Part shown: positions 305 through 13,949 of the stretch, piece by piece | Layout of the letters: the number at the start of each line of letters is the position of its first letter | Numbering within the stretch: the stretch's first letter is position 1 | Source: Phycisphaeraceae bacterium | GTDB taxonomy: Bacteria; Planctomycetota; Phycisphaerae; Phycisphaerales; Phycisphaeraceae | Length of the DNA stretch: 13,949 nt | Direction: 5' to 3' | Assembly: GCA_020850375.1 (NCBI GenBank) | Contig: JADZET010000223.1 | Coordinates: forward strand, 1-13,949 | Notes under the pieces: model-generated | Told to the model about the DNA's origin: nothing | Database searches by the model: none | What the model saw: only the letters and a program-made list of their open reading frames with translations | Translations under genes and position numbers: made by a program

Positions 305-898
305 TCACCGGTCCTGGCAACCGGGCCCTGATGACTTGTTGTGGCAGTGACGGCAGAAGGCCGAGACCGTCCCGCGTACGTCGCGGTTGTAGGTCCAGCG
401 CAGGTTGGCCGTGTCCACCGCCGCGGTGCTGTTGTGGATGTCGTGACAGCTCGTGCACTGCATCTTGCCGTTGCGGTCGAGGATGTCCTTGGCCAGCGTC
501 GTGGGGTCGATCAGCTCAGGGTCGGCCGCGACCAGGGCCGCGTCATACACGAAGCTCACGGGGTGGTTCCGATCCATCCCGCCCAGGTCGCCCGCCGGGC
601 CGAAGAGCACCTCGGGGTGATCCGACATCGTGCCGTAGGTCCCGTCATGGCAGCTCAGGCACAGCTTGCTGGCGCCATCGGGAGAGTCGGAGATGACCGC
701 GTCCATCGTCGGGCTGATGTAGTTGCCCGTGAGGGTTGTGGTCGAGTGATCCGGCTGCCACAGCGGCACCGACGTGTCCGAGAAGGCCGCGTGCGGTGTG
801 TGGCAGTGGGTGCAGGTCGACGGGTGGCTCGCCAACGCTGGCGTCGACGCCCACGCGCTCAACCCGACGATCAGGGCGGTCATCACGGCTCGTTTCAT
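305..898 (-). CDS. Secreted tetraheme cytochrome c (paired CXXCH type)
   Basis: The 197-residue protein begins with a signal peptide (MKRAVMTALIVGLSAWAST..., likely cleaved after ALA at 21-23). It carries four c-type heme sites: CTHCH at 29-33, CLSCH at 80-84, CTSCH at 148-152 and CRHCH at 182-186. His-Pro and other His residues (TPH, DHP, NHPVSF, DIH) could be distal ligands, and the layout matches the doubled-CXXCH cytochrome family. The start at 898 is chosen over one 21 nt upstream because a GGGAG ribosome site lies about 8 nt before it and the signal peptide begins there. The protein is probably a periplasmic electron carrier. It has no catalytic domain, so its redox partner is unknown. 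It diverges from the hexaheme gene, and both sit beside the ccm operon that would mature them. A strong terminator follows. Confidence 0.88.
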   Translation of the reverse strand: MKRAVMTALIVGLSAWASTPALASHPSTCTHCHTPHAAFSDTSVPLWQPDHSTTTLTGNYISPTMDAVISDSPDGASKLCLSCHDGTYGTMSDHPEVLFGPAGDLGGMDRNHPVSFVYDAALVAADPELIDPTTLAKDILDRNGKMQCTSCHDIHNSTAAVDTANLRWTYNRDVRGTVSAFCRHCHNKSSGPGCQDR

Positions 899-954
899 CG
901 TCGCATCTCCCTTGTGCAAAGGTGGTCGGTTTACCTTCTGCCCCTCCGAGGGCC

Positions 955-1218: not shown

Positions 1219-2046
1219 ATGCCCGGGTGGCGCCATCTGCTGGCGGCGATTGGCCGCTTCAACCTTCAATTCCCGTTGTTACCTGCTATCGCAGTGGTTA
1301 TGCCATTTGCCGCCATCGCCCTCGCCGAGCCGAGGGACGATTCGGTCCATGTGGCCCTCTATCTGCCCGATACTTCCAGCCAGATCTGGGACCCGATCGC
1401 CCACTCAACTTTGATGAATGATGCGGGGGCCATTGCCAACTGCGAGAATTGCCACCAGGTCAACCCTCTCTTTTCTCACCCCACCGGTGTGACGGCGCAC
1501 CCCTCGGCCGCATCCAACCTGCCACTGGAGAACGGCCTAGTCACCTGCATCACCTGCCACGACAATTCATCGCAAGCCCACCAAGACGCCAAGAACGGCG
1601 TGGGCAAGATGTTGCGTGAGATGCCCAACGGACAATCCCTCTGCGCCGCATGCCATGAAGCATCCTCCGGCCAACACGCCGGCGGGTTAGGGTTGGCCCA
1701 TCTCAAGTGGGAAAATCCCCTCAAAAATCAGGCTTCCGACTCAGTTTCCGAGGGGACCATCGACGCCCTGAGCCTGCAATGCCTGACCTGTCACGACGGA
1801 ACCACCGGCAAAAGCCTGGGCCTGAGCCATCCCATCGCCGTTTCTCAAGATCGAGCAGCCCGCGAAATCTACTCCGGCAGCCTCGCTTACACCGCTCCAA
1901 ATCGTCTCGACAGCCGCGTCCCCTTGTTTGACGGCCTGGTCGGATGCGTCAGTTGCCACAGCCCCTATTCCCAGATCCCCAAACGGCTGGTCATCGACAA
2001 CACCCACAACCAGCTCTGCCTGACCTGCCACGAGCAGCGCCGCTGA
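1219..2046 (+). CDS. Secreted hexaheme cytochrome c (paired CXXCH type)
   Basis: The 275-residue protein has a signal peptide with a hydrophobic core at about 17-33 and a likely cut after ALA (34-36). Six heme-attachment motifs follow: CENCH 75-79, CITCH 110-114, CAACH 142-146, CLTCH 188-192, CVSCH 243-247 and CLTCH 267-271. 'SHP' motifs at about 86 and 203 are possible distal ligand sites typical of doubled-CXXCH cytochromes. The start is supported by AGGGGA at 1207-1212, six bases upstream. There is no recognisable catalytic domain, so I infer a periplasmic multiheme electron-transfer protein or the heme subunit of a larger redox complex. It lies directly upstream of ccmE with a 204-bp gap and diverges from the tetraheme gene. 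The two are related in motif style but differ in length and heme number, so they are not a simple duplication. Confidence 0.88.
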   Translation: MPGWRHLLAAIGRFNLQFPLLPAIAVVMPFAAIALAEPRDDSVHVALYLPDTSSQIWDPIAHSTLMNDAGAIANCENCHQVNPLFSHPTGVTAHPSAASNLPLENGLVTCITCHDNSSQAHQDAKNGVGKMLREMPNGQSLCAACHEASSGQHAGGLGLAHLKWENPLKNQASDSVSEGTIDALSLQCLTCHDGTTGKSLGLSHPIAVSQDRAAREIYSGSLAYTAPNRLDSRVPLFDGLVGCVSCHSPYSQIPKRLVIDNTHNQLCLTCHEQRR

Positions 2047-2250: not shown

Positions 2251-2754
2251 ATGAACCATCGCACACTCAAACTCGCTTTCGGCGCTCTGGTCCTGGTGCT
2301 CGCCCTGGGCTACCTGGCCGTCTCGGGCGTGCGCGAAGGCTGGGTGTACTACGTCACGATCGACCAGCTCTCCGACTCCGACCAGATCCGCGGCCGACGC
2401 ACGCGATTGACCGGCAACGTGGCCAAGCAGGGCATCGAGATCGCCCCCGGAAGGCTCGATGCCAAGTTCATCCTTGCCGGCAACGTCAACCGTCTGCCCG
2501 TCACCTATCACGGCGTCATCCCCGACATGTTTCGCGCCAACGCCCAGGTCATTGTGACCGGCCGCTTGAACGATCAGAACGTCTTCGTCGCCGACGAGCT
2601 GATGACCCAGTGCGCCAGCAAGTACCAATCCGCCAAACCCCCGCAGCACCCCAACGTCGACGCAACGGTTCAGCCCCCGGCTCCGCCGGGGGGTACGTCC
2701 GAATCTCCCCTCGCCCCTGCATCTTCCTCTACTCCCGCCCCCCAGGGAACCTGA
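2251..2754 (+). CDS. ccmE: Cytochrome c maturation heme chaperone CcmE, CxxxY variant
   Basis: CcmE receives heme from CcmABC(D) at the outer face of the membrane and hands it to CcmF. This 167-residue protein has one N-terminal signal anchor (about 6-25), then the small beta-barrel OB-fold domain (about 33-118; e.g. TRLTGNV, VTYHGVIPDMF, VIVTGRL). The family's heme-binding site follows. In E. coli it is H130 with Y134 (HxxxY). Here the aligned stretch reads ADELMTQCASKY, so the His is replaced by C121 and the Tyr is Y125. The resulting CxxxY motif is the hallmark of the System I* form studied in Desulfovibrio and found in archaea. The tail (130-167) is Pro/Ala/Ser-rich and probably disordered. 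No strong ribosome site precedes the ATG. It ends 4 bp before ccmF. Confidence 0.93.
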   Translation: MNHRTLKLAFGALVLVLALGYLAVSGVREGWVYYVTIDQLSDSDQIRGRRTRLTGNVAKQGIEIAPGRLDAKFILAGNVNRLPVTYHGVIPDMFRANAQVIVTGRLNDQNVFVADELMTQCASKYQSAKPPQHPNVDATVQPPAPPGGTSESPLAPASSSTPAPQGT

Positions 2755-2758
2755 CCCC

Positions 2759-4804
2759 ATGACGGCCCTCATCGGCGACTACAGCCTGAGTTTCTGCGTC
2801 CTGATCGCCGGCGCGGGGATCGCCGCCTGCCTCGGTGGCCTGACTTCACTCGCCCGCTGGTGCATCGTCACCATCGCCGTCGCCCTCAGCGTAAGCTGCG
2901 GCGCTCTGCTCACCGCCCTGTTCCAGAACGACTTCTCCATCGCCTACGTCGCCGAATACAGCGAACGCGCCCTGCCCCTGGGCTACAAGATCGCCGCCCT
3001 CTGGGCCGGCCAACCCGGCAGCCTCCTGCTCTGGGCCTGGTTCGTCGCCGTCATGGCCGTCATCTTCGTCCTCGTCCACGCCCGCCGGGACGACCTCGAA
3101 ACCCGCGTCGCCCTCGGCGCCGTCGCCGCCTTCCTCGCCTTTCTCGCCCTCTTGCTCCTGTACGACGACCACGGCCCCTTCGTCACCCAGTCGCCCGCGC
3201 CCCTCGACGGCTTGGGTCTCAACCCGCTGCTCCAAGACCCCGCCATGGTCGCCCACCCCCCGGCGCTTTTCCTCGGCTACGCAGGCTTCACCTTCCCCTT
3301 TGCTCTCATGCTCGGCGCCATGGTCGCCGGACGCTCCGACTCCCAATGGCTCGCCGCCCTGCGCCGCTGGACCCTCGCCTCCTGGCTCTTCCTGACCATC
3401 GGCATCATCCTCGGCGCCCAGTGGGCCTACATCGAGCTCGGCTGGGGCGGCTACTGGGCCTGGGACCCCGTCGAGAACGCTTCGCTCCTGCCCTGGCTGA
3501 CCTCCACCGCGCTCCTGCACTCGATGATCGCCGAGCAACAACGCGGCGCCCTGCGCCGCTGGAACGTTGCCCTGATCGCCGCCAACTTCATCCTCTGCCT
3601 CCTGGGCACCTACCTCACACGCAGCGACATCGTCCAGTCCGTCCACGCCTTCGCCGGCTCGTTCGTTGCCACCTTCTTCCTCGCCCTGATCCTCCTCTGC
3701 CTGGGCGTCAGCGGCGCGCTACTCATCTGGCGCTGGGGCCGGCTCGAAACAGCTCAGCCCGTCCAGAGCCCCTGGAGCAAGGAGGGAGCATTCTGGCTGG
3801 GCAATGCCCTGCTGACCCTCATGACGGTCACGACGCTCGTCGGCACGCTCTGGCCGGCGATCTACTCCCTTTTTGGTGGTGCGGCCATGGACGGCGGGGC
3901 CATGGAGGGCGGCCCCGCCGTCGGCCTTAACTCGGCGTTCTACAACCGCATCGTCCTGCCCATGGGCCTGGTGCTCCTGGCCCTGATGGCGGCCGGCCCC
4001 ATGCTCACCATCGCCGGCAACGGCAAGCAGCTCGCCCGCCGTATGACCGGGCCGTTCGTCGGCGGCTTGGCGGTCGTCGCGATCCAACTCCTGCTGGGCA
4101 TTCGGGGCCTCTGGCCCTTGGCCTGTGGCGCCGTCGTCGGTACGGCCCTCACCAGCGTGGCCCTGGGCTTCGTCCAGGCCGTCAACCTGCGCCGCGGCCA
4201 GACCGGCCAAGGCGCTCTCTCTGCCGCGATCCACGTCTTCGACGGTTCGCACCGGCGCTACGGCGGCCAGATCGTTCACCTGGGCATGCTCATGGTGATG
4301 GCCGGCATCGCCGGCTCGAGCCTCTTCGGCATCAAGGACACTTTCTCGCTGGAAAAAGGCCAGAGCCGGACCGTCGCCGGTTACCAGATCCACTACCTCG
4401 ACTTCCGCCAGGTCAAAGGCTCGAACTACACCGCCCTTCAGGCCGACCTCCGCCTCGAAGCCCCCGACGGCACAACGACCGACCTCGCTCCGCAGACGCG
4501 CTATTACAGCAAGTCCAGCCAGCCCAACACTGAGGTGGCCCTCATGACCAACCTCCGGCGCGACATCTACGTCACCCTCGCCGGCTGGGACCACGACGGC
4601 CGGCTCGCCACCCTCGAGGCGAGGATCAATCCCCTGGTGGCCTGGATCTGGGTCGGCGGCATCGTCCTGAGCCTCGGCGCCGTCATCGGCCTGATGCCGC
4701 GCTTCCTGCCCGCCCGCCAGACGCAGCCGGCCGACGCACGCTCCCCGTCCGCGTCCAAGTCTTTTCACATCCCCCTAAGCACCTGCGACACGGAGACGCC
4801 ATGA
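2759..4804 (+). CDS. ccmF: Cytochrome c heme lyase subunit CcmF
   Basis: CcmF takes heme from CcmE and ligates it to the apocytochrome CXXCH cysteines. This 681-residue polytopic membrane protein is near the usual length (E. coli about 647). The WWD heme-handling motif is intact (W229 through L247, containing WAWDPVEN). All four conserved histidines line up: H166 (AHPPALFLGY), H254 (ALLHSM), H296 (SVHAFA) and H507 (GGQIVHLG), matching E. coli H173, H261, H303 and H491. A soluble outer domain lies at about 525-620, followed by a last membrane helix (about 625-646). Odd points are a Gly/Met-rich insert at about 373-386 from a short tandem duplication, and a polar C-terminal tail (652-681). A ribosome site AGGGAA (2744-2749) precedes the start. 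The stop overlaps the next gene's start as ATGA, so translation is probably coupled. Confidence 0.96.
   Translation: MTALIGDYSLSFCVLIAGAGIAACLGGLTSLARWCIVTIAVALSVSCGALLTALFQNDFSIAYVAEYSERALPLGYKIAALWAGQPGSLLLWAWFVAVMAVIFVLVHARRDDLETRVALGAVAAFLAFLALLLLYDDHGPFVTQSPAPLDGLGLNPLLQDPAMVAHPPALFLGYAGFTFPFALMLGAMVAGRSDSQWLAALRRWTLASWLFLTIGIILGAQWAYIELGWGGYWAWDPVENASLLPWLTSTALLHSMIAEQQRGALRRWNVALIAANFILCLLGTYLTRSDIVQSVHAFAGSFVATFFLALILLCLGVSGALLIWRWGRLETAQPVQSPWSKEGAFWLGNALLTLMTVTTLVGTLWPAIYSLFGGAAMDGGAMEGGPAVGLNSAFYNRIVLPMGLVLLALMAAGPMLTIAGNGKQLARRMTGPFVGGLAVVAIQLLLGIRGLWPLACGAVVGTALTSVALGFVQAVNLRRGQTGQGALSAAIHVFDGSHRRYGGQIVHLGMLMVMAGIAGSSLFGIKDTFSLEKGQSRTVAGYQIHYLDFRQVKGSNYTALQADLRLEAPDGTTTDLAPQTRYYSKSSQPNTEVALMTNLRRDIYVTLAGWDHDGRLATLEARINPLVAWIWVGGIVLSLGAVIGLMPRFLPARQTQPADARSPSASKSFHIPLSTCDTETP
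3883..3916 (+). repeat. Short imperfect tandem duplication inside ccmF
   Basis: Two adjacent copies of a unit of about 15-16 bases containing GCCATGGA and GGCGG give the peptide pattern GGAAMDGG / GAMEGGP at about residues 373-386. It lies in a loop between membrane helices where other CcmF proteins have no such Gly/Met repeat. It looks like a small slippage duplication in frame. Confidence 0.5.
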
Positions 4805-6027
4805 ACCTCCAAGGCCGGCCGGTCCCATGCAATCACTTCCCCGCACGCCGCCGTGCGGCTGCATGGCTCGTTGCCCTGATCGCGATGACCGTGACGCCGG
4901 CATCTCTCGCACAGTCCGCGCCCGGTGACGCGCCCGCGACCATGCCCCCCGGCCATCCCGCCATCGCCCCGCCCCTGCCCGACGAGATGGACACCAGCGC
5001 CGTCGGCCGCGTCACCGTCCAGATCGTCCAGCACACCCCAGACACGACCGGCGTCACCAGCGGCACGGTGACCCTCGAGCTCCAGCACCGTGGCCACGTC
5101 ATGCACAGCCTCACCGCCCCGATCGACGAGCACGGCCGCGCCGTCTTCGACAGCGTCCCCGTCGGCATCCCCGTCGTCGCCGTCGCCCAGTTCGAGCACC
5201 AGGGCGTCCGCTTCAGCGCCCAGAGCGAGCCCCTTAGCGCCGAAAATCCCAACGCCGACATCGAGCTGACCGTCTGCGAGACGACCACGCAGCGGCCGGA
5301 CCTCGCCATAAGCAGCCGCCACGTCATGGTCCGCGTCACGCCCCACGGCCTGATGGTCCAGGAGATGCTCTCGGTCGACAATCCCACGGACAAGGCCTGG
5401 GCCCCCTCCGAGCCTGCTCAGCCGGCCGAAGGCGCAGCCACTCCCGCCGAGCCCCAGCCCGGCCTGACGTTCAGCCTGCCCCTGCCGGACCAATCAGCCA
5501 ATCTCCGCCTCGGCGCGGGCCTGACCCCGGAGAACTCCACGATCGTCGGCCACGAGTTGCAGCTCCGTTCGCCGCTCCTGCCCGGCGACAACCGCATCAC
5601 CATCGCCTACACCCTCCCGCTCCAGGAGGGCCAGGCCGTGCTGCCCGTGCTCAGCACCCTGCCCACCCGGCAGGTGATGATTTTCATCCCCGACGATGGC
5701 TCGGACGTCCAGGCCCAGGGACTGACCGCCGAGGGCAAGATGTCCGCCGGCCCCGGCGAGGTGCGCGTCTGGCGCGGCTCGGACGTGCCGGCCGACCAGA
5801 CGCTGACCCTGACCGTCCGCCCCGGCCAATCAACGACGCAACCATCGGACAGCTCCGCCGCCCCGTCCCCGGCCGCCGCTCCGCCGGATGATTCGCCCGC
5901 TGCGCCACACTCTCAAGTTCCTGCGGCGCCGCCGGGCAGCGCACGCACGCTGGCCCTGGCCGGCGGGGCGGTCCTGCTGCTCCTGGGCGTTATCATGGCC
6001 CTGGCCCGGCGCTCCAAGAAAGCCTGA
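4801..6027 (+). CDS. Uncharacterised membrane-anchored beta-sandwich protein in the ccm operon
   Basis: The product is 408 residues. A hydrophobic segment at about 20-37 ends in SLA-Q and looks like a cleavable signal peptide. A Pro-rich linker (39-61) and a beta-rich domain (68-162) follow; the latter resembles carboxypeptidase-regulatory/transthyretin-like folds, with GTVTLELQHRG, GRAVFDSVPVG and VRFSAQSEPL. A second beta domain occupies about 164-340. After a long Pro/Ala/Ser linker (341-380), a single helix (383-401) and RRSKKA anchor it, with the bulk in the periplasm. There is no CXXC or CXXCH; the only cysteines are C10 in the signal region and C159. HxxHxxH at 96-102 (HRGHVMH) is the only metal-ligand-like cluster. 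The start overlaps the ccmF stop (ATGA) with GGAG at 4792-4795. Position implies a role in heme handling or Ccm complex assembly, but the function is unknown. I do not recognise a named family with certainty. Confidence 0.8.
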   Translation: MNLQGRPVPCNHFPARRRAAAWLVALIAMTVTPASLAQSAPGDAPATMPPGHPAIAPPLPDEMDTSAVGRVTVQIVQHTPDTTGVTSGTVTLELQHRGHVMHSLTAPIDEHGRAVFDSVPVGIPVVAVAQFEHQGVRFSAQSEPLSAENPNADIELTVCETTTQRPDLAISSRHVMVRVTPHGLMVQEMLSVDNPTDKAWAPSEPAQPAEGAATPAEPQPGLTFSLPLPDQSANLRLGAGLTPENSTIVGHELQLRSPLLPGDNRITIAYTLPLQEGQAVLPVLSTLPTRQVMIFIPDDGSDVQAQGLTAEGKMSAGPGEVRVWRGSDVPADQTLTLTVRPGQSTTQPSDSSAAPSPAAAPPDDSPAAPHSQVPAAPPGSARTLALAGGAVLLLLGVIMALARRSKKA

Positions 6028-6054: not shown

Positions 6055-6813
6055 ATGACTCACGCCGCGCCCGCATCCTCGCCCGCGTCCCAGGTCGCCG
6101 CCTCCCCGGCCGTCCGCATGGTCAACCTGACCAAGCGCATCGACGATCGCCCGATCCTCGCCGGCCTGACGCTGACGATCTCGCGCGGCCGCTTCGTCGC
6201 CCTCGCCGGCGCCAACGGCGCCGGCAAGACCACCCTCCTGCACATCCTCGCCACCCTCACCAACCGCACCAGCGGCGACCTCGAACTGCTCGGCCGGCCC
6301 GTCACCCACGGCTCAGCCTCCGCCCACCTCCGCGCCAAGATCGGCCTGATCGGCCACCAGGCCCTGCTCTACCGCGACCTCACCGCCCGCGAAAACCTCA
6401 TCTTCTTCGCCCGCCTCTACAACGTCACCGATCCCCCCGGCAGGGCGGCGCAACTCCTCTCGCGCATGGGTCTGCTCGACCGCGCCGACGACCCCGCCGC
6501 CACCCTCAGCCGCGGCATGCTCCAGCGCCTGGGCATCGCCCGCGCCGTCGTCCACGACCCCGAGCTCCTCCTCGCCGACGAGCCCTTCGCCGGCCTCGAC
6601 GCCCCCTCCACCGCCGCCATCGAGAGCCTGCTCACTGAACTCCACCAGTCCGGCAAGACCATCCTGATGAGCAATCACGACGTGCCCCAATCGCTTCGCC
6701 TCGCCCAGCACGTCATCGCCCTGCGCCGCGGCCGCTGCGTCATGGATCAGCCCACTACTTCCGGGGGCGGGGCCGAGGTCACGCCTGCCCAACTCCTGGA
6801 GGCCATCCGATGA
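6055..6813 (+). CDS. ccmA: Heme exporter ATP-binding protein CcmA
   Basis: This is the cytoplasmic ATPase of the CcmABC transporter, whose ATP hydrolysis frees heme-loaded CcmE from CcmC. The 252-residue ABC protein has all expected motifs: Walker A GANGAGKTT at 52-60, Q-loop at Q102, signature LSRGM at 151-155 followed by LQRLGIARA, Walker B LLLADEP at 171-177, D-loop GLD at 180-182 and H-loop H208. The signature is LSRGM rather than LSGGQ. The first 21 residues (Ala/Ser/Pro-rich) exceed the usual CcmA start, and M22 (codon at 6118) is an alternative start; neither has a clear ribosome site. It lies 27 bp after the anchored protein and its stop region overlaps ccmB (ATGA), so A and B are translationally coupled. 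Confidence 0.94.
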   Translation: MTHAAPASSPASQVAASPAVRMVNLTKRIDDRPILAGLTLTISRGRFVALAGANGAGKTTLLHILATLTNRTSGDLELLGRPVTHGSASAHLRAKIGLIGHQALLYRDLTARENLIFFARLYNVTDPPGRAAQLLSRMGLLDRADDPAATLSRGMLQRLGIARAVVHDPELLLADEPFAGLDAPSTAAIESLLTELHQSGKTILMSNHDVPQSLRLAQHVIALRRGRCVMDQPTTSGGGAEVTPAQLLEAIR

Positions 6814-7484
6814 CCCTCCTCAAACAGCTCTGGCTCCTGACCGCCAAGGACCTCCGCATCGAGGCCCGCACCCGCCAGACCGTCGGCCTGATCGTCGTCC
6901 TCGGCCTCCTGATCGTCGTCGTGCTGGGATTAGGCCTCGGCCCCGAACAACTCAACCAGAGCCTCGCCGCCCCCGCCGCACTCTGGGTCGCCTACCTCTT
7001 CGGCGGCGTTCTCTGCTTCGAGAAGACCATGGCCGTCGAACGCCACGACGCCGCCCTCGCCGGCCTGCTCATGGCCCCCGTCGACCGCGGCGTCATCTAC
7101 CTCGCCAAGCTCCTGAGCAACCTCATCCTCATGTTCGCCCTCGCCGCCATCGTCACCCCCATCGCCGTGGTCATGTTGAGCTTCGACCTCTCGCCCGCCC
7201 CGATCGGCTTCCTGGCCGTCATGGCCCTGGCCATGCTCGGCTTCGCATCGGTGGGAACCCTCTTCTCCGCCGCCGTCAGCTCCACCCGCCTCAAGGGCGG
7301 CCTCCTGGCCATCCTCGTCCTGCCCATCACCCTCCCGATCGTCATCGCCTCGACCCAGCTTGTCCTGGCCATGTTCCGTGACAACGTCCCCCTCGGTGGC
7401 ACGGGCCTTGCCATCCTTCTAGCGTTCGATGCGATCTACCTCGTCGTCAGTTGGCTGTTGTTCGAACTCGTCCTCGAACCCTGA
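6810..7484 (+). CDS. ccmB: Heme exporter permease CcmB
   Basis: CcmB is the membrane subunit that pairs with CcmA in the CcmABC complex. The 224-residue protein has about six hydrophobic helices (roughly 25-43, 52-70, 98-123, 131-153, 163-187, 199-220). It starts with a cytoplasmic KDLRIEARTRQT segment typical of the family, contains FGGVLCFEKTMAVERHDAALAGLLMAP with the conserved charged loop, and ends in FDAIYLVVSWLLFELVLEP, like other CcmB proteins. The length is normal (E. coli about 220). The ATG overlaps the ccmA stop (ATGA), with GGAGG at 6798-6802 seven bases ahead. No oddities were seen. Confidence 0.94.
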   Translation: MTLLKQLWLLTAKDLRIEARTRQTVGLIVVLGLLIVVVLGLGLGPEQLNQSLAAPAALWVAYLFGGVLCFEKTMAVERHDAALAGLLMAPVDRGVIYLAKLLSNLILMFALAAIVTPIAVVMLSFDLSPAPIGFLAVMALAMLGFASVGTLFSAAVSSTRLKGGLLAILVLPITLPIVIASTQLVLAMFRDNVPLGGTGLAILLAFDAIYLVVSWLLFELVLEP

Positions 7485-7496
7485 GCGGAGCCCGAC

Positions 7497-8189
7497 ATGA
7501 CCACACAGCCACGCAACACCGGCCTGACAATCCTCGCCGCGATCTACTGGCTCCTCACCGCCCTCCTCGCCGCCGCCGTCACCGTCATGGCCCTCACCTG
7601 GACCCCCGTCGAGCAGTCCATGGGCCCCGTCCAGAAGATCTTCTATCTCCACCTCCCCTCCGCCATCAACACCCTTCTCGCCGCGATGATCGTCTTCGTC
7701 GCCAGCATCGGCTACCTCCTCCAGCGCAAGAGCGCCTGGGACGACCTCGCCGCCGCCGCCGCTCGCTCCGCCGCCGTCTTCGGCGCCATCGTCCTGATCA
7801 CCGGCATGATCTGGGGCAAGGCCGCCTGGGGCCAATGGTGGACCTGGAGCCCGCGCCTCACTTTCAGCCTCGTCCTCTGGCTCCTCTACGTCGTCTACCT
7901 CATCATCCGCCCCTCGGTCGAGGGCGAGCACCGCCGCGCCCTGGTCTGCGCCGTCTACGGCATCGTCGCCTTCCTCGACGTCCCGCTCGTCTGGCTCTCT
8001 GCCCGACTCATGCCCGACATCCATCCCGGCTCGATCCAGCTCGAGCCCGAGATGAAGCTCACCCTCCTCGCCGCCTTCGTCCCCGTCACCATGGCCGCCC
8101 TGGGCCTGACCGTCCTCGGCTGGCGCCTCGCCGCCCGCCGCCGACGCTGGCGCGCCGAGTACACCGCCGCCGAATCCCAGCCCGCCTAG
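7497..8189 (+). CDS. ccmC: Heme-handling protein CcmC with altered WWD motif
   Basis: CcmC presents heme to CcmE through a WWD domain and two axial histidines. This 230-residue protein has six helices. H52 in KIFYLHLPSA and H176 in MPDIHPGS are both exactly 8 residues short of E. coli H60 and H184. The WWD stretch runs from W106 (WGKAAWGQWWTW) to R120-L121, but reads WTWSPRLT where the usual text is WxWDARLT: the Asp is replaced by Ser118-Pro119. The rest of the fold and spacing are normal, so it is probably functional with a variant motif rather than decayed. The ribosome site GGAG (7487-7490) lies 6 bases upstream and the gap to ccmB is 12 bp. No ccmD-like short helical gene follows. The protein ends with a basic tail (RRRRWR). 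Confidence 0.93.
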   Translation: MTTQPRNTGLTILAAIYWLLTALLAAAVTVMALTWTPVEQSMGPVQKIFYLHLPSAINTLLAAMIVFVASIGYLLQRKSAWDDLAAAAARSAAVFGAIVLITGMIWGKAAWGQWWTWSPRLTFSLVLWLLYVVYLIIRPSVEGEHRRALVCAVYGIVAFLDVPLVWLSARLMPDIHPGSIQLEPEMKLTLLAAFVPVTMAALGLTVLGWRLAARRRRWRAEYTAAESQPA

Positions 8190-8411: not shown

Positions 8412-8440
8412 TTGACAGTCTTAACTACACAATTTATACT
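8412..8440 (+). promoter_or_regulatory. Consensus sigma-70-type promoter of the HAF-repeat gene
   Basis: A perfect -35 TTGACA (8412-8417) and -10 TATACT (8435-8440, five of six) are separated by exactly 17 bp in a local AT-rich patch. Transcription would start near 8446-8448, giving a leader of about 75 nt before the ATG at 8523. It is by far the best promoter match in the window. Confidence 0.85.
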
Positions 8441-8522
8441 TATTAATCATCAATTGCCCTTTTTTTGTTTCTCCCCCCTGATCCAACGCGTCTACCCGTT
8501 CAGAGTCGAGGCCCCTACGCCC

Positions 8523-10031
8523 ATGCAAAGAATAATCCACCCCGTGCAGCCGATGGTCATCCTCGGCATCCTTGCGCTGTCGTCACCCGCCGTGGCGGAT
8601 TTCATCATCGTCCACGGAAGTCCGGCATACACGCCGGGTGTGGGTGGTTACCGCGGCGGCGGTTCGTATTCATTAGCGGGTGACGGCTACGCGGTCGGCT
8701 ATGCAACCCGATTTGACGAATTCGACAAGGGTATGGGCCAGCGAGCCGTCTACTGGAATGCCGCCGGCCTGTCTATGGAATTGGGTGATCTCGGCGCCAG
8801 CGCTTCAGGAGTAACGAATTCACAGGTTCTCGGATTGAATGCGAATGGCCTGATGGTGGGCGACGCTGAAAAATTCAGCGAGGCTGGTTCGAGCTTGGGT
8901 TCACCTGCGGTTTGTTGGAATGCCGCTGGCCAGGTCTTTGAGCTCAAGGGACTTGGCACGAGTGCTACCGGACTAACCGGTGGCAATGCCATTCGAATCA
9001 ACCAAGCCGGAATGATCTGGGGCAACACTCAAAAATATGATGCCACGGGTGAATTGGTGGGTGGTCGCGCAGTGCGCTGGGACAGCCCCGATGCCTCACC
9101 GGCCGAGTTGGAGCTGCTTGATCCCGCGATGCCTGAGGCAGGCGCATATCTAATTGACGCAACTGACTCAGGCATAGCGGTGGGCAGGTCCAGCCGAACA
9201 TTGCCCTCCGGCAAGAGGCTAGACGCCGCCGTGCGATGGGATGCATCAGGCCAAATCACTGAGCTGGGGAATCTCGGAACCTTGTCGGATGGCTTCTACT
9301 ACTCCTATGCCCTGAGAGTCAATCAAGCCGGAACAGCAATCGGCTACGCCATCAAGCTCGACGGATCGGGCGACCCCAACAAGAACCTGGGACTCCGCCC
9401 CGTGCGCTGGGATGCCACGACCGGAGACGCGACGGAACTGGGCGTGCTGGGCGTGAACAACCTCGGCAGGACCCATGGCTACCCGATCGCCATCAACGAT
9501 GCCGGCGTCATTGTCGGGAACCTCGAGAAATTTGATCCGGACCATCAGTCCCTCGGCGGTCGAGCCGTACGCTGGGACCCTCTAAGCGTCGAGGCGATTG
9601 AGATGGAGACGCTCGGCACAAAACCCGCGGGCGTCGCCCAAGCAGAGGTCAAAGCCGTCAATAACCTTGGCATCTCAGTTGGCAAATCTGACATCTACGA
9701 TGCCCAAGGCAACCGGTTGGGCGCGGCGGCGGTGCTCTGGACCGCCGATGGCTCAATTCTGGATCTCAACACGCTGATAGATCCCTCAAGCGGCTGGACT
9801 CTCCAGTACGCCTCGGATATCAGCGATGCTGGTTGGATCACCGGCCAAGGACGCTTCGATCCGGACGGATCGGGCCCCCAAGAGGCGTACACACGGCTCT
9901 GGCTCATGCAAGTGACCTCCGTCGTGCCCGAGCCGTCCTCCACCCTCGTCCTTGTTCCCGGCACCGTCATGTTGCTGCTCCGCCGACGCCGCCTGACCAA
10001 CCCCACCGCCGCCGAACTCCTGCCCGCCTGA
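8523..10031 (+). CDS. Secreted HAF-repeat protein with PEP-CTERM sorting tail
   Basis: The 502-residue product has a signal peptide (cleavage after AVA, about residue 25), then eight repeats of about 54 residues. Each contains an AVRW-like strand (75, 129, 183, 236, 293, 348, 403, 457), usually followed by an ELgxLG segment and an 'INxxGxxVG' turn. This matches the extracellular HAF repeat. The C-terminus is a PEP-CTERM signal: VPEP at 468-471, a short hydrophobic helix (about 473-486) and RRRR (487-490). The protein is thus exported and probably processed by an exosortase, which is not in this window. The start at 8523 is preferred over an in-frame ATG at 8412 that overlaps the promoter; GAGG at 8508-8511 is a weak ribosome site. 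Codon use is visibly less GC-rich than in the ccm genes. The function is unknown; a role in surface or matrix material is inference. Confidence 0.85.
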   Translation: MQRIIHPVQPMVILGILALSSPAVADFIIVHGSPAYTPGVGGYRGGGSYSLAGDGYAVGYATRFDEFDKGMGQRAVYWNAAGLSMELGDLGASASGVTNSQVLGLNANGLMVGDAEKFSEAGSSLGSPAVCWNAAGQVFELKGLGTSATGLTGGNAIRINQAGMIWGNTQKYDATGELVGGRAVRWDSPDASPAELELLDPAMPEAGAYLIDATDSGIAVGRSSRTLPSGKRLDAAVRWDASGQITELGNLGTLSDGFYYSYALRVNQAGTAIGYAIKLDGSGDPNKNLGLRPVRWDATTGDATELGVLGVNNLGRTHGYPIAINDAGVIVGNLEKFDPDHQSLGGRAVRWDPLSVEAIEMETLGTKPAGVAQAEVKAVNNLGISVGKSDIYDAQGNRLGAAAVLWTADGSILDLNTLIDPSSGWTLQYASDISDAGWITGQGRFDPDGSGPQEAYTRLWLMQVTSVVPEPSSTLVLVPGTVMLLLRRRRLTNPTAAELLPA

Positions 10032-12269: not shown

Positions 12270-13949
12270 TCAGAAACCCGCCCTCGGTCCACGTCGTCGT
12301 CCAAGCTGCAGGCACAGCCCGACCAACCCAACGATCGCCGCCGGCTCAGGCACAAGCACAAGCTGCCCGCCATTAAGGTTGACCGTCCCGCCCAAGTCGG
12401 TAAACGTCCGGTAGTAAAGATTCAGCCCATTGAGATCGAGAACGGAGCCCGCCCCCAGCACCAGGTGCTCGACGTAGAGCGCTTCAGGCAGAGCATCAGC
12501 AAGCGCGTTATTGTTACGGTCCACGAGTTGGGCCCATCCGATGCTGTCATCGCCGCCGATCTGGAGCGTGTCGAGGGCGAAGTTGCTGTCGTAGCCGGCG
12601 AGGGCCGCCCCCAGGTCGAGGCCAGCAACTTCAAGACGCTTGGCTTCAGTCGGATCACCCTCGAAGATCAACGTGAGGTTCTCCAGTCCGGCGACTTTGA
12701 GCGGATCAGTGCCATAAAAGTAGAAGAGTGCATCGTCCAAATGAATGCTCGTCCCGCTGCCGGCTTCGAACTCAGCCGCCTCTCCCAGGATAAATGCCCG
12801 TCCGATGGTGATGCCCACGGTGGGGTCAGTGATCTGCAGCACCGCGCGGCCGTTGGTAAAGACGGTCCCTGCGTTAAGACCGGTCATGGCGTGCAGCGTG
12901 CCGCCCGACATCAAATAAGTCGATGGGGCTGACGCCGCTGTCGAATAGATTTCCATGGGATAGATGGTATCCCCCTCGTGAATGACATCCCCGCCGGTTT
13001 GTTCGAAGCGGGCTGGCCCGGAATCGAACGAGAAGTAGCCAAGCTCGAAGTATTGCGTGGATAGCGTCCCGCCGTGCATCTCATAGACAGACTCCTCGCC
13101 TTGATATCCCATGATGCGCACATAGCCGTGCTCAATCACGCCCTCATGCTGCACGAATGCCCCGGCCGTCTGGAGGGAGGTGAAGGAATCGATGAACACA
13201 TGCTCTATCTGGCCCCCATACATCACCGAAGGTTCGCTTGTGGGCCTCAGATTGACGCCCTTAAGATAGGCCCCAGGGTGAATCGTGACCGTGTTACTCA
13301 GCGAGATCGTGCTGCCGTCGGCCGCGTCAATCCTGCCCCAGACGTCAACCGGATCGCTGATGCTGCCGGCGCCGCCGACCGTCTTGCCGACCGGAATGCT
13401 CAGCGTGGTGCCTCGAACATGCGTCATGCCCTGATTGGTGAAGCTGCCGAAGCCGGCCTCGGGATCGTCGCCGGCATCATGGATCAGCAGCGACTCCGGC
13501 CCGAGCGTGACGGAAGCGTTGCCGGCATTCGTCAGCGTGCGAACCCCGAAGTCGACGATGCCGTTGACCGACAGCGAGGACGGCGACGATGGGAAAACGA
13601 ACTGTGCGGGTGGCCGTCCAGGCGAGCCGATCACCCATCCATAACTGATGGCCAGCGAACCGCCACCCCACTCGTAGCGACCTTCTGGTTTAACGGTCAA
13701 CTGCTCAGCGGTGTGCGACCCGCCTGTCTGGAAAAAGGTGCCGCTCATTTTCACGGATTTGGCCGTGAGCACGCCGGCCCCCTCCAGATGATATTGACCA
13801 TCGACATTCAAGGAATCCGTGTCATGCGTGCCCCCGGACTGCAGGAGGCTACCGCCGGCGCCGCCATTACTTGCCCTGCCAATGGCCGTGGAGCGCGTGG
13901 TCAATTGTCCTGATTGCAGGCCATAGGTTCCGGACGAGCCGGTATCCCA
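12270..13949 (-). CDS. Large PEP-CTERM autotransporter-like protein, 5' end outside the window
   Basis: The frame is open to the right edge (559 codons visible) with no true start inside the window, so the N-terminus is missing. The edge part shows repeats of the form G-x-Y-x-L-x-x-G-x-L with QSGGTH and QTGGSH. The middle has Gly/Ser/Thr/Leu-rich beta-helix-like sequence (TLTNAGNASVTLGPESLL, THVRGTTLSIPVGKTVGGAG). The end has LDLNGLNLYYRTFTDLGGTV, then VPEPAAIVGLVGLCLQL and RRR, a PEP-CTERM sorting signal. Such proteins are exported, trimmed by exosortase and displayed or released; the role here is unknown. Coding use is less GC-biased than in the ccm genes. It converges on the PhyH gene with a 78-bp gap that has no clear terminator. 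Confidence 0.85.
   Translation of the reverse strand, partial: WDTGSSGTYGLQSGQLTTRSTAIGRASNGGAGGSLLQSGGTHDTDSLNVDGQYHLEGAGVLTAKSVKMSGTFFQTGGSHTAEQLTVKPEGRYEWGGGSLAISYGWVIGSPGRPPAQFVFPSSPSSLSVNGIVDFGVRTLTNAGNASVTLGPESLLIHDAGDDPEAGFGSFTNQGMTHVRGTTLSIPVGKTVGGAGSISDPVDVWGRIDAADGSTISLSNTVTIHPGAYLKGVNLRPTSEPSVMYGGQIEHVFIDSFTSLQTAGAFVQHEGVIEHGYVRIMGYQGEESVYEMHGGTLSTQYFELGYFSFDSGPARFEQTGGDVIHEGDTIYPMEIYSTAASAPSTYLMSGGTLHAMTGLNAGTVFTNGRAVLQITDPTVGITIGRAFILGEAAEFEAGSGTSIHLDDALFYFYGTDPLKVAGLENLTLIFEGDPTEAKRLEVAGLDLGAALAGYDSNFALDTLQIGGDDSIGWAQLVDRNNNALADALPEALYVEHLVLGAGSVLDLNGLNLYYRTFTDLGGTVNLNGGQLVLVPEPAAIVGLVGLCLQLGRRRGPRAGF

Follow-up and report, generated by a model that had tools for sequence, protein, structure and literature searches.

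System I* is a variant of the Ccm cytochrome c maturation pathway known from archaea, Desulfovibrio and certain other bacteria (Allen 2006 and Goddard 2010, via PMC3601427 and PMC9084895), and its described holders comprise archaea, delta-proteobacteria, Chloroflexi and Firmicutes (PMC3601427). CcmE has been described with either His or Cys (PMC12285233). The CPSKY motif of System I* was found in 25 of 36 bacterial genomes, and about one third of System I* bacterial genomes have CcmH, the absence of which is not characteristic of the variant (PMC3601427). The Ccm operon of a Desulfovibrio, which lacks CcmH and CcmG, functions in E. coli (PMC3601427), and putative CcmH proteins have been reported alongside archaeal CxxxY (PMC4600277). 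In Methanosarcina acetivorans, CcmE residue C120 is required and the C120A mutant lacks the heme-stained CcmE band (PMC9084895), while for the CcmE of Desulfovibrio vulgaris non-covalent binding of ferric heme has been reported (PMC3884852). System II has been discussed for the anammox planctomycetes (PMC4429474); the main text of PMC9084895 and the passages of PMC12285233 seen here contain no mention of planctomycetes.

The window, by which we mean the whole 13,949-nt stretch analysed here, carries a ccm operon in the order ccmE, ccmF, X, ccmA, ccmB, ccmC, all on the plus strand (Table 1), with ATGA overlaps at the ccmF/X and ccmA/ccmB junctions. Its closest named relatives are mostly MAGs assigned to Phycisphaerae, Phycisphaeraceae or Planctomycetota, and a Phycisphaeraceae bacterium protein shares 70% identity with protein X of the window. 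One close locus (L023) stands in a record titled Vicinamibacteraceae, yet its genome (G004) was drawn within the class sample described below.

Table 1. Features of the ccm operon and of the adjoining cytochrome genes in the window.
Feature	Position	Strand	Basis or remark
ccmE (Cys-type heme chaperone; predicted TM helix, OB fold, flexible Pro-rich tail)	2251..2754	+	167 aa
CxxxY heme motif CASKY (C121, Y125)	2611..2625	+	translation, phmmer, MAFFT, structural alignment
ccmF, heme lyase	2759..4804	+	PF16327 5.1e-48, PF01578 1.4e-37
protein X, unnamed	4801..6027	+	408 aa from first start; overlaps ccmF by ATGA
ccmA, ABC ATPase	6055..6813	+	PF00005 4.8e-31; TIGR01189 ccmA 8.1e-36, under curated cut-off
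ccmB	6810..7484	+	PF03379 1e-25
ccmC	7497..8189	+	PF01578 9e-24; TIGR01191 7.4e-29, under curated cut-off
multiheme cytochrome c, six CxxCH, likely client	1219..2046	+	PF09699 1.3e-13
tetraheme cytochrome c, four CxxCH, likely client	305..919	-	PF09699 4.6e-07

Residues 32-127 of the ccmE product match the Pfam CcmE family (PF03100, 3.7e-24), and sequence and predicted structure together give an OB-fold heme chaperone domain with an N-terminal membrane anchor; the protein scores under its NCBIfam equivalog or subfamily cut-off. An ungapped phmmer alignment sets ELMTQCASKYQ of the window against EVLAKHDENYT of E. coli CcmE (1sr3, 8ce8), and phmmer also places the motif Cys on the Cys of D. vulgaris CcmE (2kct). 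With MAFFT, C121 pairs with His130 and Y125 with Tyr134 of E. coli CcmE. The structural alignment of the CcmE model with 1sr3 closes on the pair model 121 : chain 130, and that with 2kct ends at 124 : 130, by which C121 would fall on 2kct residue 127. C121 is the sole Cys of the protein, and its His residues are confined to positions 3, 87 and 133, so the heme site is without a His. The signature of canonical System I, HxxxY with His at the CcmE heme site, is therefore absent, C121 replacing His130. CASKY is unchanged in all 41 aligned CcmE sequences of a protein search, the window's own included, so the motif is not there by chance. The first-pass annotation had read a Cys at the heme-binding position, CxxxY for HxxxY, and had proposed alignment with the E. 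coli and Desulfovibrio proteins; its reading is borne out. The assignment of the protein as a System I*-type CcmE of a planctomycete is well supported, and its sequence suggests that heme would be attached via C121.

A protein search favours close kin, and we therefore added the general Pfam CcmE model as a second route. This model matches both types of chaperone, that of E. coli (His) and that of Methanosarcina (Cys). It was applied to two overlapping samples, 392 genomes of Planctomycetota and 396 genomes of the class of Planctomycetales bacterium ZRK34 (G001, locus L010), for which a completeness of 80 was requested, the actual values not being displayed. CcmE is present in 38 of the 392 phylum genomes, at 40 places, and 38 of these places align a Cys in the column of the window's Cys. 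A second, partial CcmE domain in genome G037 has a gap there (its first domain has Cys), and the place in genome G164, missed by the profile, reads CEHAY at the heme site by eye. In total, Cys is found in 38 of 38 CcmE-bearing genomes of the phylum and His in none; the same column is His in three His-type references (E. coli, Sphaerotilus, Cupriavidus). In the class sample CcmE occurs in 35 of 396 genomes, once per genome and always with Cys: CASKY and CESKY in 15 each, and CGSKY, CGSRY, CPSKY, CSSRY and CPSRY in one each, part of these motifs being scored as the last [CH]xxx[YF] within the matched stretch.

Two of these places differ from the usual arrangement. The CcmE ORF of G037 (locus L092) is accompanied by the partial second domain, which has no heme motif. 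The G164 protein (locus L167, 6137-6685, minus strand) is a divergent CcmE-like protein; CcmF, CcmA, CcmB and CcmC were not seen near it in the 14-kb locus, and CcmB had no match in the G164 genome.

A CcmE tree, also proposed by the first-pass annotation, was built from 119 rows and 128 columns with the motif columns omitted. The 116 Cys-type rows separate from the His-type side, which consists of three references only, with an SH-aLRT support of 99. The window CcmE falls in a 44-row group (support 80) that holds most Phycisphaerae-type rows and 11 CPSxY rows, its position within the group not being settled by 128 columns. Further Cys-type loci were retrieved under titles including Chloroflexi, Deltaproteobacteria, Poribacteria, Spirochaetia, KSB1 and Nitrospira; they give no frequency, because the retrieval pattern itself contained the Cys. 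The expectation that the window would extend the CxxxY variant to another phylum stands in so far as no report of a Cys-type CcmE in Planctomycetota was found among the literature matches listed (subscription papers, for the most part, and supplements being outside their scope). The window is not an isolated case, however, given the Cys in all 38 CcmE-bearing genomes. The variant itself was already known; our counts indicate that the Cys-type is the rule among the planctomycete relatives sampled.

CcmF retains His matching E. coli positions 173, 261, 303 and 491, together with the motif WGGYWAWDPVEN, and CcmC retains His matching positions 60 and 184; these positions are described as heme ligands. 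CcmA has the Walker A and signature motifs. CcmA, CcmB, CcmC and CcmF, the set that goes with System I*, are all present by Pfam matches over cut-off and by residue checks, while CcmA, CcmB and CcmC score under the NCBIfam equivalog or subfamily cut-offs. Both multiheme cytochromes c lie upstream of the operon. Among the eight window proteins scanned, the ResB/CcsB models of System II matched CcmF and CcmC alone, as weak side hits; some ResB match occurs in 20 of the 35 CcmE-bearing class relatives. Further along the window, ORFs at 8412-10031 (plus strand) and 12270-13904 (minus strand) encode predicted surface proteins with a tail of Pro-Glu-Pro, a hydrophobic segment and an Arg-rich end, presumably akin to a PEP-CTERM sorting signal.

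Within the window, no ORF of at least 60 aa matches E. coli CcmG or CcmH or the Metabacillus CcmH (phmmer, 1e-3), an operon content that agrees with System I*. For CcmD, the stretch downstream of ccmC as far as 8412 has no listed start of a plus-strand ORF of at least 20 aa, the listing giving one start per ORF and no internal ones where ORFs overlap. The CcmEFABC set that the first-pass annotation called complete belongs to a planctomycete-type operon; it is not a complete System I, and a sixth protein lies between ccmF and ccmA.

Compared with E. coli System I (CcmABCDEFGH), the window has Cys for His130, no recognised CcmD, CcmG or CcmH in the operon, and the order E-F-X-A-B-C instead of A-B-C-D-E-F-G-H. 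It resembles System I* in CxxxY for HxxxY, in CcmA, CcmB, CcmC and CcmF, and in an operon in which CcmG and CcmH were not found; it differs in phylum, in CASKY as against the majority CPSKY, in having X between ccmF and ccmA, and in that CcmD was not recognised, which D. desulfuricans has and needs (PMC9084895). The CcmABCEF set of M. acetivorans is likewise combined with a Cys-type CcmE and without recognised CcmD, CcmH or CcmI, but there ccmF is split and the genes lie outside one operon (PMC9084895), whereas the window has one operon and a single-gene ccmF. A ccm operon on a Metabacillus plasmid (NZ_CP088246.1) shares the order E-F-...-A-B-C and a Cys-type CcmE (CPSKY); unlike the window, it has annotated CcmH and CcmD and two extra hypothetical genes between ccmH and ccmA.

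CcmH, a helper on which E. coli depends, was sought with PF03918 in 45 CcmE-bearing genomes and then in 27 further class genomes; in 14 control genomes this model matches four (E. coli, Caulobacter, Thermus and Deinobacterium). It has no match in 13 genomes with CASKY, CGSRY or CESKY CcmE, and matches 25 of the remaining 32, which are phylum genomes whose CcmE motif is a different one, a set not sorted by class; 22 of the matches are over cut-off. The complete genome of ZRK34 (G001), whose locus L010 has both a CASKY CcmE and X, is among those with no match. None of the 27 further class genomes, three with CPSKY, CSSRY or CPSRY among them, has a match, giving 0 of 35 CcmE-bearing class genomes (8 from the first set and 27 from the second), a count to be read with fragmentary MAGs, divergent CcmH and shared ancestry in mind. 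A very divergent CcmH could escape, since matches in other planctomycetes go down to 20 bits. CcmB is present in 42 of the 45 genomes, and a DsbD-type transmembrane protein in all 35 CcmE-bearing class genomes. The window, where neither CcmH nor CcmG was found, and the class relatives, with no detectable CcmH, together suggest that CcmF probably functions without both here.

Protein X matches no Pfam family. Its database copy (P0042) has 361 aa, and it is predicted to have a signal-peptide-like start, an MPPGHP motif, two beta domains and a C-terminal TM helix (structure model pLDDT 83.9). Of 32 Phycisphaerae-type loci, 31 have a homolog after ccmF. Motifs of the form (M/L)PxGHP occur in 24 of 60 X proteins, with 56 copies altogether; one to five copies follow the signal peptide in the window and in loci L013, L015, L002, L010 and L017. 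PxGHP-type motifs are also seen in ORFs downstream of ccmC (L014, 13688-14560; L027, 14119-15060), and some Cys-type CcmE proteins have a (M/L)PxGHP stretch in their tail. An X-type membrane-anchored beta protein is conserved within ccm operons across several phyla. In Chloroflexi and deltaproteobacterial loci (L037, L053, L047, L050, L060, L061), X has a charged, helical-looking end past the TM segment, which may resemble the cytoplasmic portion of CcmI. X probably serves as an accessory subunit. More tentatively, and on balance doubtfully, it may be a component of Cys-type Ccm systems that helps CcmF to receive heme or apocytochrome, with (M/L)PxGHP as a heme-relay or docking element.

We consider a streamlined maturation system for cytochrome c of the System I* type, with C121 as heme site, CcmF working without CcmH/CcmG and X as a likely accessory, to be the best reading of the locus (probability about 0.8). 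CcmABC would bring heme to the membrane's outer face, and CcmC would load it onto CcmE. There C121, with Y125, would stand in for His130, with Tyr134, as attachment site, the bond probably being a thioether to a vinyl group of the heme. CcmE would then pass the heme to CcmF, which would attach it to the CxxCH motifs of its clients, for example both adjacent multiheme cytochromes. Reductant would probably come from a DsbD/CcdA-type protein, and X would probably join the maturation machine as an accessory subunit. Release of heme from CcmE is left unexplained by this scheme, because a thioether is normally very stable (PMC3601427).

That difficulty would be sidestepped if C121 were only a non-covalent axial (thiolate) ligand and the chaperone carried heme with no covalent bond (PMC3601427), as the ferric heme of D. 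vulgaris CcmE suggests. The D. vulgaris report (PMC3884852) also qualifies the first-pass premise that CxxxY proteins bind heme through the Cys, since established work does not extend covalent binding to all of them. We regard non-covalent carriage as improbable, given the covalent heme reported for D. desulfuricans CcmE (PMC3601427) and the heme-stained band of M. acetivorans CcmE that is lost in C120A.

A conventional System I, relying chiefly on a CcmH and a His-type CcmE whose genes lie elsewhere, gains some room from a gene search that spans only the window for the source organism. It is very unlikely in view of the class relatives, in which CcmH goes undetected in all 35 CcmE-bearing genomes and the single CcmE place of each is Cys-type. 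It is harder still to credit a neutral or degenerate Cys in a non-working CcmE, as the H130C allele of E. coli CcmE, which binds heme and fails to hand it over (PMC9084895), might suggest, when every CcmE-bearing relative read has Cys, the ccm operon is intact and tightly packed with its motifs and His retained, and multiheme cytochromes adjoin it.

The results point to a Cys-type heme chaperone as a phylum-wide rule, well beyond sulfate reducers and archaea. To our knowledge, the failure to detect CcmH in the class and protein X are new. X is a conserved, unnamed operon partner and a concrete new gene for testing; if it does aid CcmF, this would explain how multiheme cytochromes are produced without CcmH in this planctomycete class. 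The class pattern of Cys-type CcmE, undetected CcmH and a usually retained X offers a natural minimal set with which to probe the role of CcmH and the means by which CcmE might be freed from so stable a bond as a thioether.
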